Notes under the pieces: generated by a model | Database searches by the model: none | Told to the model about the DNA's origin: nothing | Seen by the model: the letters and a program-made list of their open reading frames with translations, nothing else | Part shown: positions 47,112-59,850 of the stretch, in pieces | How positions within the stretch are numbered: position 1 is the stretch's first letter | Layout of the letters: the number at the start of each line of letters is the position of its first letter | Translations under genes and position numbers: made by a program | Assembly (NCBI RefSeq): GCF_018069705.1 | Contig: NZ_CP072943.1 | Coordinates: forward strand, 1,105,260 to 1,169,259 | Length of the DNA: 64,000 nucleotides | DNA from: Aminithiophilus ramosus | GTDB taxonomy: Bacteria > Synergistota > Synergistia > Synergistales > Aminithiophilaceae | Direction: 5' to 3'

Positions 47112-47660
47112 CTATAGGGACGGACTCTGGCTGGCACCCGGCTTTTGCGGGGGAAGCGGCGGCTGATCCGGCTTCTGAGGATCACCGGGTTTCTGCGGCT
47201 GGTTCGGCTTCTGGGGATCTCCGGGCTGCGGCGGCTGGCCCGGCTTCTGGGGGTCTCCGGGCTGCGGCGGCTGGCCCGGCTTCTGGGGGTCTCCGGGCTG
47301 CGGCGGCTGGCCCGGCTTCTGGGGGTCTCCGGGCTGAGGCGGCTGGCCCGGCTTCTGGGGGTCTCCGGGTTTCTGCGGCGGCTGGCCCGGCTTCTGGGGG
47401 TCTCCGGGCTGCGGCGGCTGGTTCGGCTTCTGGGGATCTCCGGGCTGAGGCGGCTGACCCGGCTTCTGGGGGTCTCCAGGCTGAGGGTTCTGAGGCGGAA
47501 TCTGAGGAGGTTGCTGCGAATCGTCAGGCTTGGCCGGAACGTTGAGAGCCGAGATCGTCGACGCCGAGAGGACGCCGTTTCGCACCTCCTCGGCGGAGAG
47601 CGGCGCCGTTGCCGTGACCAGACAGGACAACGCCAAAACAGACACGAAGAATTTCTTCAC
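47112..47660 (-). CDS. Secreted Pro/Gln-rich repeat protein
   Basis: A 182-residue exported protein with a signal peptide (about residues 1-22, ending APLSAEEV), a short unique part (NGVLSASTISALNVP), then nine tandem copies of a 12-residue unit around PGDPQKPGQPPQ, ending PGASQSPSL. The repeat is a likely extended polyproline-type rod. GTG start at 47660 has GAGAGG 8 nt upstream. No anchor motif is visible, so it may be released or bind the wall. Function unknown. Confidence 0.8.
   Translation of the reverse strand: MKKFFVSVLALSCLVTATAPLSAEEVRNGVLSASTISALNVPAKPDDSQQPPQIPPQNPQPGDPQKPGQPPQPGDPQKPNQPPQPGDPQKPGQPPQKPGDPQKPGQPPQPGDPQKPGQPPQPGDPQKPGQPPQPGDPQKPGQPPQPGDPQKPNQPQKPGDPQKPDQPPLPPQKPGASQSPSL
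47150..47485 (-). repeat. 36-bp tandem repeat encoding the Pro-rich units
   Basis: Nine near-identical units; variants are GQ/NQ/DQ at one position and an inserted Lys codon in two units. The DNA repeats are close enough for length change by slippage. Confidence 0.8.
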
Positions 47661-48020
47661 GAGAAACACCTCTCTTTCTGAAAGTCCGGATACATACACT
47701 CACATCGCAGAATAAGCTTCCTCCACTCACGAAAACAACAAAAAAACATGCTAAAAGTTTTGCATTCCAAATACCGCAAAATCATTTCAGTAAGATGCTA
47801 CATCGTTTATCCCTTGGAATCAATACCATATTTGCGATCTTCATAAAACTTTATGATTCTTGGCATGAAATAAAATTAAATAAAAAGAATAATATTGAAA
47901 GCTTCTGTGCCGATCTTCTGCACATTTTTTGTCTGTGGTCAAAATTCTCAGCCTATGTTAAAATTGAAGAAACTGGCCTGCCTTGGAATCTGAAGCTACC
48001 TTTTGAAAGGAGAGACATTT
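47661..48020. other. AT-rich divergent intergenic region
   Basis: About 360 bases between the Pro-rich gene and the SYLF gene, markedly AT-rich with many A- and T-runs. It must hold both promoters; no single pair of elements is clear enough to name, and I see no gene. Confidence 0.55.
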
Positions 48021-57816: not shown

Positions 57817-59850
57817 CTACTTCACCGGTGGCTTCGAGCCACCTCGCGGCCTTCCTCTCCCCTTTTTATCGGCGAAACGGGAAAAGGCGAAGGCTCGTTC
57901 AGGACGGGAGCCGTCGGAGCGGGGCCGGTCGTCGCGGCGGGGAGCGTCGGAGCGGGGCCGGTCGTCGCGACGGGGAGCGTCGGAGCGGGGCCGGTCGTCG
58001 CGACGGGGGCCGTCGGAGCGGGGCCGGTCGTCGCGGCGGGGAGCGTCGGAGCGGGGCCGGTCGTCGCGACGGGGAGCGTCGGAGCGGGGCCGGTCGTCGC
58101 GGCGGGGAGCGTCGGAGCGGGGCCGGTCGTCGCGACGGGGGCCGTCATAGCGGGGCCGGTCGTCGCGACGGGGGCCGTCGGAGCGGGGCCGGTCGTCGCG
58201 ACGGGGGCCGTCATAGCGGGGCCGATCGTCGCGACGGGGAGCGTCGGAGCGGGGCCGGTCGTCGCGACGGGGGCCGTCATAGCGGGGCCGATCGTCGCGA
58301 CGGGGAGCGTCGGAGCGGGGCCGGTCGTCGCGACGGGGGCCGTCGGAGCGGGGCCGGTCGTCGCGGCGGGGAGCGTCGGAGCGGGGCCGGTCGTCGCGGC
58401 GGGGAGCGTCGGAGCGGGGCCGGTCGTCGCGGCGGGGAGCGTCGGAGCGGGGCCGGTCGTCGCGGCGGGGAGCGTCGGAGCGGGGCCGGTCGTCGCGACG
58501 GGGGCCGTCATAGCGGGGCCGATCGTCGCGACGGGGAGCGTCGGAGCGGGGCCGGTCGTCGCGACGGGGGCCGTCATAGCGGGGCCGGTCGTCGCGACGG
58601 GGGCCGTCATAGCGGGGCCGGTCGTCGCGACGGGGGCCGTCATAGCGGGGCCGGTCGTCGCGACGGGGAGCGTCGGAGCGGGGCCGGTCGTCGCGGCGGG
58701 GAGCGTCGGAGCGGGGCCGGTCGTCGCGGCGGGGACCGTCGGAGCGGGGCCGATCGTCGCGGCGGGGACCGTCGGAGCGGGGCCGGTCGGAGGCGGGGCG
58801 CCCCTGATAGGTCTCTCCGGCTTCACGGCGCCTGAGCTGGCCGCAGGCGGCATCGATATCGGAGCCTTTCTCGGCCCGCGTCTCGACCTCGACGCCGAGA
58901 GACTGGAGTTCCTCCTTGAAACCCTGAACGCGCGCCCGGGAAGAACGCTTGAAATCGGCCCCTTCGACGGCGTTGAAGGGGATGAGGTTCACGTAGGCCT
59001 TCATGCCCGAAAGGAGGGCAGCCAGGTCGCGGGCATGGGAGAGACTGTCGTTGACATCGGCCATGAGGAGATACTCGAAGGAGATGCGGTTGCCCGTCCG
59101 CTCCTGGTAATCGCTGAGGGCGGCCATGAGAGCCCCCAGAGGATAACGCTTGTCGACGGGCATGAGACGACTCCGGAGTCCGTCGGTGGGGGCGTGGAGG
59201 GAGACGGAGAGCCCCACCCCAGGCGCCTCCTGGGCGAGACGCCTTATGGCCGGAACGATGCCGGCCGTCGAGACGGTGAAGCGGCGGATGCTCATGGCGC
59301 GCAGCTTCGTATGATTGAGGATGGCGATGGCCTTGAGAAGGGCATCGACATTGAGGAGCGGCTCTCCCATGCCCATAAAGACGACGTTGGCGATATCCCG
59401 TCCGAGGTGGGCCTCCATGGCCAGGAGCTGGCCCACGATCTCTCCTGCCGACAGATCGCGTACGAATCCGCCCTGCCCCGTGGCGCAGAACGTGCAGCTC
59501 AGAGGACAGCCGACCTGTGTCGAAAGGCAGGCCGTCTGGCGGTTATCGTGAACGAGGAGGACCGATTCGACCGTCTCCCCGTCGTCGAGGCGCCAGAGGA
59601 ATTTTTTCGTTCCGTCCCTCTCGGAAGTCACATCCCGGGAGAGACGGGGAGGCGTAAAGTCAATTTCCAGAGCCAACCGCTCCCTCAGGGGAATCGAGAG
59701 ATCGGTCATTTGCGAAACATCGAAGATGCGCCTGCGGTAGACCCAGGCCCCGACCTGATCCACGCGAAAACGGGGCTCTCCGAGTCGTTCCTCGAAAACA
59801 AGGCGCAACTCTTCGTAATCCATATCCAATCCTTTAATGACACTTCCCAT
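57817..59850 (-). CDS. rlmN: 23S rRNA/tRNA adenine-C2 methyltransferase RlmN with a long Arg/Asp/Pro repeat tail
   Basis: Residues 1 to about 345 are a complete RlmN, the radical-SAM enzyme that methylates C2 of A2503 in 23S rRNA and A37 in some tRNAs: iron-sulfur ligands C115, C119, C122 (GCPLSCTFCATGQGGF), VVFMGMGEPLLN, SVSLHAPTD, and the methyl-carrier Cys C336 in DIDAACGQL. From residue 355 an unrelated tail follows: 26 complete copies plus one degenerate copy of an 11-residue unit (DRPRSDGPRRD and variants with SDA or YDG), then a basic end (KKGRGRPRGGSKPPVK). ATG at 59850 with GGAGG 7 nt upstream. Such tails occur on RNA helicases; on RlmN this is unusual. The efflux genes follow 34 nt later. 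Confidence 0.95.
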   Translation of the reverse strand: MGSVIKGLDMDYEELRLVFEERLGEPRFRVDQVGAWVYRRRIFDVSQMTDLSIPLRERLALEIDFTPPRLSRDVTSERDGTKKFLWRLDDGETVESVLLVHDNRQTACLSTQVGCPLSCTFCATGQGGFVRDLSAGEIVGQLLAMEAHLGRDIANVVFMGMGEPLLNVDALLKAIAILNHTKLRAMSIRRFTVSTAGIVPAIRRLAQEAPGVGLSVSLHAPTDGLRSRLMPVDKRYPLGALMAALSDYQERTGNRISFEYLLMADVNDSLSHARDLAALLSGMKAYVNLIPFNAVEGADFKRSSRARVQGFKEELQSLGVEVETRAEKGSDIDAACGQLRRREAGETYQGRPASDRPRSDGPRRDDRPRSDGPRRDDRPRSDAPRRDDRPRSDAPRRDDRPRYDGPRRDDRPRYDGPRRDDRPRYDGPRRDDRPRSDAPRRDDRPRYDGPRRDDRPRSDAPRRDDRPRSDAPRRDDRPRSDAPRRDDRPRSDAPRRDDRPRSDGPRRDDRPRSDAPRRDDRPRYDGPRRDDRPRSDAPRRDDRPRYDGPRRDDRPRSDGPRRDDRPRYDGPRRDDRPRSDAPRRDDRPRSDAPRRDDRPRSDAPRRDDRPRSDGPRRDDRPRSDAPRRDDRPRSDAPRRDDRPRSDGSRPERAFAFSRFADKKGRGRPRGGSKPPVK
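57898..58788 (-). repeat. 33-bp tandem repeat array inside rlmN (26 full units plus a partial)
   Basis: On the minus strand each 33-bp unit encodes D-R-P-R-[S/Y]-D-[G/A]-P-R-R-D. Three variants (SDG, SDA, YDG) are interspersed. The unit length is a multiple of 3, so all frames stay open through the array, producing spurious long frames on both strands. Confidence 0.95.

Follow-up and report, generated by a model that had tools for sequence, protein, structure and literature searches.

A predicted disordered, arginine-rich repeat tail on RlmN of Aminithiophilus ramosus and its possible role in RNA tethering

RlmN is a widespread RNA-modification enzyme. In the 64,000-nucleotide stretch of the Aminithiophilus ramosus genome that we analyzed (the window), the rlmN gene runs in frame past the end of a complete catalytic core into a long array of 11-residue units, which raises the questions of whether this extension truly belongs to the protein and what it might contribute to the enzyme. 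The parts of the gene are as follows.

57817-59850, minus strand: rlmN open reading frame, with an ATG start at 59850, open over 677 aa
58816-59850, minus strand: RlmN catalytic core, residues 1-345 (TIGR00048, Pfam, invariant cysteines, AlphaFold2)
58789-58815, minus strand: short linker ETYQGRPAS, residues 346-354 (translation)
57931-58788, minus strand: 26 full units of 33 bp or 11 aa, DRPR[S/Y]D[A/G]PRRD, residues 355-640 (tandem repeat, codon reading)
57898-57930, minus strand: degenerate 27th unit DRPRSDGSRPE, residues 641-651 (codon reading)
57820-57897, minus strand: C-terminal basic end RAFAFSRFADKKGRGRPRGGSKPPVK, residues 652-677, containing FAFSRFxDxKGxG, which is kept in two sister species
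57817-57819, minus strand: stop codon (open reading frame)

Catalytic core, reading frame, and tail architecture

The enzyme is RlmN by every sequence test. TIGR00048 matches residues 8-345 (2e-111; 372.4 bits against a cut-off of 290), and the Cfr models score far under their cut-offs. Pfam places RlmN_N (PF21016, 5e-13) and Radical_SAM on the core, with the N-terminal accessory domain present. The radical SAM cysteines C115, C119, and C122 and the methyl-carrier C336 are invariant in 29 aligned RlmN sequences, AlphaFold2 gives the core pLDDT values mostly above 90, and the best PDB matches by sequence are the solved RlmN structures 6fz6, 3rf9, 5hr6, and 4pl1. Shared with TIGR00048 RlmN are the whole core, the radical SAM CxxxCxxC, the methyl-carrier cysteine in ACGQL, and the single copy, this being the sole RlmN match in the single-contig 3.1 Mb genome; the predicted activity is formation of m2A2503 in 23S rRNA and m2A37 in tRNA.

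The start codon is preceded by GGAGGT at Shine-Dalgarno spacing. Within the repeat, other frames are also open (ORFs of 476 aa and 343 aa), so that the open rlmN frame alone is weak evidence for coding; the Jensen-Shannon composition similarity between frames did not single out the coding frame either, and the assignment rests instead on a second strain of the species and on the conserved end. In Synergistota bacterium L-13 (CP074691.1; genome labelled as the same species), the rlmN core is identical (0 differences in 1035 nt), as is the 186-nt 3' end, and the array holds 25 full units rather than 26; two in-frame changes, one of 2 units and one of 3, separate the two unit strings. An identical core combined with in-frame unit changes, together with the in-frame tails of the sister species, makes a frameshift or missed stop very unlikely. 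That the tail is an artefact of assembly or reading frame, the true protein ending near residue 345, draws on the openness of the other frames, but it is exceedingly improbable and already largely refuted by the second strain and by two other species with long in-frame tails and the same terminal motif. The 677-residue ORF is confirmed as a complete RlmN core with an in-frame repeat tail, and chance is excluded.

The array itself was detected at 57906-58789 as 26.8 copies of a 33-bp unit with 92% matches and no indels. The initial annotation, which described a complete RlmN with all four cysteines followed in frame by 26 complete 11-residue units and one further unit, was exact in its anatomy and its count. 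Its extent of 57898-59850 captured the start of the gene and the units, but on the left it reaches no further than the degenerate unit, so that the 26 C-terminal residues and the stop codon (57817-57897) are missing from it. What it called a basic end is indeed basic and 26 residues long, but it is also a motif conserved in the sister species.

AlphaFold2 assigned pLDDT values below 50 to residues 346-411, 413-636, and 638-672, leaving the tail without confident structure, and we take it to be disordered on the strength of this model. The tail comprises 36% Arg/Lys, 25% Asp/Glu, and 1% Val/Ile/Leu/Met/Phe/Trp/Cys, with a net charge of +36; aromatic residues (Phe/Trp/Tyr) make up 3%, and Tyr occurs in seven units. 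With this composition the segment is a mixed-charge polyampholyte, not a simple cationic tail. Its GC content is 80%, compared with 64% for the core.

Distribution and conservation of the tail

RlmN normally ends soon after the methyl-carrier cysteine, and this held outside Synergistota, where 57 complete genes in a sample drawn by similarity, and therefore uneven, end 5-36 residues past the matched core, compared with 332 residues added here. Within the order, 158 of 183 genomes yielded an RlmN, and the 3' end was read for 82. Long tails, defined as at least 60 residues, were present in 3/3 members of the window's own family (f1), 33/38 of a second family (f5), and 3/4 of a third (f6). In two of the five f5 exceptions the gene runs off the contig, in one a frameshift intervenes and a tail is present in the following frame, and the remaining two have short ends. 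No tail of at least 60 residues was seen in the sampled members of f2, f3, f4, f7, f8, and f9, with one f3 gene obscured by N. The search for C-terminal extensions that the initial annotation had proposed thus found tailed RlmN to be common in parts of the phylum and not peculiar to one gene.

At G075:C1:1254097-1255068 (L186), RlmN is followed by a long N run that masks any tail, and at G037:C1:409900-412500 (L051), RlmN is interrupted by a frameshift and an Arg/Gly-rich tail lies in the next frame. Separately, an RlmN match was absent from every listed genome of family f10 (for example, G011), one of which is 99% complete; it is possible that this nearly universal enzyme was lost there, or that the copy is too divergent for the query used.

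When mapped onto the tree of the core, tail presence required 5 changes, compared with a mean of 25.8 and a minimum of 19 after shuffling. The f1 sequences did not join those of f5 and f6, and because deep support in this tree is only moderate, the tail may have arisen once and then been lost in places, or may have been gained separately.

Tails of 210-338 residues are carried by each of the three species sampled in the genus; they are built from different units but retain 34-39% Arg/Lys and 22-25% Asp/Glu. The terminal FAFSRFxDxKGxG is kept in all three, the sister-species ends being FAFSRFTDKKGKG and FAFSRFTDGKGKG. The f5 tails are Lys/Arg-rich and differ in sequence, with net charges of +12 to +41, and they occur with core GC fractions from 0.41 to 0.69; they are basic across this range, so GC content alone does not account for tail composition.

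Possible functions of the tail

Our preferred reading, plausible though tentative, is that the disordered, multivalent Arg-rich tail tethers RlmN to nascent 23S rRNA and tRNA and that its conserved terminus makes a contact of its own. The four Arg of each 11-residue unit would contact RNA phosphates, and its three Asp would keep binding weak and reversible, so that about 27 units would enrich the enzyme locally at nascent 23S rRNA and tRNA while contributing no specificity. The aromatic-basic end FAFSRFxDxKGxG may make an additional contact, either with RNA or with a partner. The benefit would fall in early 50S assembly, while incompletely folded rRNA is available; the steps that we infer run from translation of the tail through RNA binding and tethering to this assembly benefit. 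Work in Escherichia coli showed that 50S assembly is stimulated by active RlmN and assigned the enzyme to an early stage of it (PMC11194073). Support for such a tether comes from the complete core, the single RlmN match, the lack of confident structure in the tail, the charge make-up and end kept across three species, the net basic f5 tails over a wide range of core GC, and the small number of changes that tail presence needs on the core tree. Against it, the 25% Asp/Glu of the tail may make RNA affinity low, the quick change in unit number within the species would also be expected if selection on the repeat were weak, and the tail is not needed for the reaction, since RlmN is tail-less in six families of this order.

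A close precedent lies in DEAD-box helicases, in which disordered tails rich in Arg or RGG bind RNA and serve to tether the substrate (PMC10193013); disordered RGG tails confer RNA binding on Dbp2, and RNA binding by the bacterial CsdA reportedly depends critically on its C-tail (PMC10193013). Like those tails, the extension described here is low-complexity, Arg-rich, predicted to be disordered over nearly all of residues 346-672, and appended to a folded RNA enzyme. Here, however, the enzyme is a radical SAM methyltransferase and the tail is an 11-residue tandem repeat, a quarter acidic, in which no RGG or RG repeats were found. A helicase-like RNA-binding tail, as first proposed, remains the best reading of an Arg-rich segment that AlphaFold2 leaves unstructured, although the lack of RGG in its units and its acidic quarter keep it out of the RGG family. 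Asp/Arg-rich repeats also occur in the DRYG repeat of eIF4B and in other Arg/Asp mixed-charge domains. The resemblance to eIF4B, which extends to Tyr in part of the units, is one of composition and a lead only, in another protein from another organism, and about half of the rlmN tail residues are Arg and Pro. An open-access literature search on RlmN C-terminal extensions found nothing relevant.

Two main rivals stand against a tether: a docking motif borne on a linker, and a repeat that is nearly neutral. In the first, which we consider unlikely but a serious contender, the repeat would be a length-tolerant entropic linker, and the conserved end would serve as a short linear motif through which RlmN docks onto an rRNA site or a partner in ribosome assembly. 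The retention of the end across three species while the repeat units were replaced is consistent with this, and ends resembling AF[S/A][K/R]F are found in f1 and in some f5 tails. The pattern F-x(0-2)-[KR]F ends 10 of the 39 complete long tails, compared with 0.3 expected and a maximum of 3 in 2000 shuffles of the tails, but the pattern was chosen after the tails had been inspected and related sequences are not independent, so that this enrichment is a lead and not a test. Of the long tails, 18 carry RYRSGKMK-type motifs and 16 carry SGGF, both motifs being known from f5, but many tails have none of these three motifs. A search of six genomes for the SGGF/RYRSGKMK stretch returned RlmN only, apart from weak matches in other frames, and thus revealed no common partner.

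The second rival, which we rate as rather unlikely, holds that the 3' end of a GC-rich gene underwent slippage and recombination, which produced an expandable array that is tolerated and functionless. The 2-unit and 3-unit changes between two strains whose cores differ by no base, the higher GC content of the tail, and the several lineages without a tail all fit such a by-product. It is harder to reconcile with disordered basic tails in nearly all sampled f5 members over a wide range of core GC, with a charge make-up that is kept as the sequence is replaced, and with a conserved end beyond the repeat.

Two other proposals assign the tail a larger part. It is distinctly unlikely, in our estimate, that parts of Synergistota evolved, perhaps more than once, a tail with a role of its own, making RlmN an early 50S-assembly scaffold or RNA chaperone that is tuned between strains by repeat number. 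Similarly doubtful is that the tail drives condensates, the Arg/Asp/Tyr polyampholyte gathering RlmN and perhaps other assembly factors in rRNA-rich foci near nascent transcripts: long repetitive disorder, the mix of basic and acidic residues, and the Tyr-bearing units would suit such a role, but aromatics are scarce, and the tail of the genome's top-scoring DEAD-box helicase is short, so that no second strong scaffold is seen.

Tailed RlmN (tails of 338 residues at most) beside tail-less families of the same order provides a natural comparison for tail function, which could ask whether tails on RNA-modifying enzymes ease their access to nascent rRNA, bring in partners, or make no difference. 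The change in unit number between strains enables dose-response tests.

The repeat elsewhere in the genome

A genome-wide repeat family was rejected, the pattern occurring outside rlmN in only one CRISPR spacer; two weak protein matches were obtained, neither of them the tail of another RNA enzyme. A phage origin was likewise rejected, with no exact 28-mer in IMG/VR and no protein match in phages. One pseudouridine synthase of the genome was inspected and has no tail. The top-scoring DEAD-box helicase (L147 1378-2877) has an Arg-rich tail of about 45 residues (DRANRDRGRRPDPRSSNRRSEYRGDRSRN...).

The matching spacer (G000:C1:302640-302672, plus coordinate 302640; L009 3641-3673) belongs to an array of 102 spacers at G000:C1:300766-307277, which adjoins genes that, by eye, resemble a type I-E cas set. 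Of its 33 bases, 30 agree with the rlmN repeat, including all of the first 28, at eight units; the runner-up among spacer matches in the window reaches 70%. The spacer is absent from strain L-13. Its first base is A, whereas 92 of the 102 spacers begin with G; because this base is atypical, the spacer source probably lacked the usual PAM, and a self-matching spacer against a housekeeping gene is probably tolerated for want of a PAM. The last bases of the spacer read RPRT in the rlmN frame, so the spacer may derive from a variant rlmN tail; the sister species has RPRT units, but in other codons.

The window also encodes a second tandem-repeat protein (47112-47699, minus strand), of 195 aa, with a signal-peptide-like start followed by (PGDPQKPGQPPQ)n in about nine 36-bp units.
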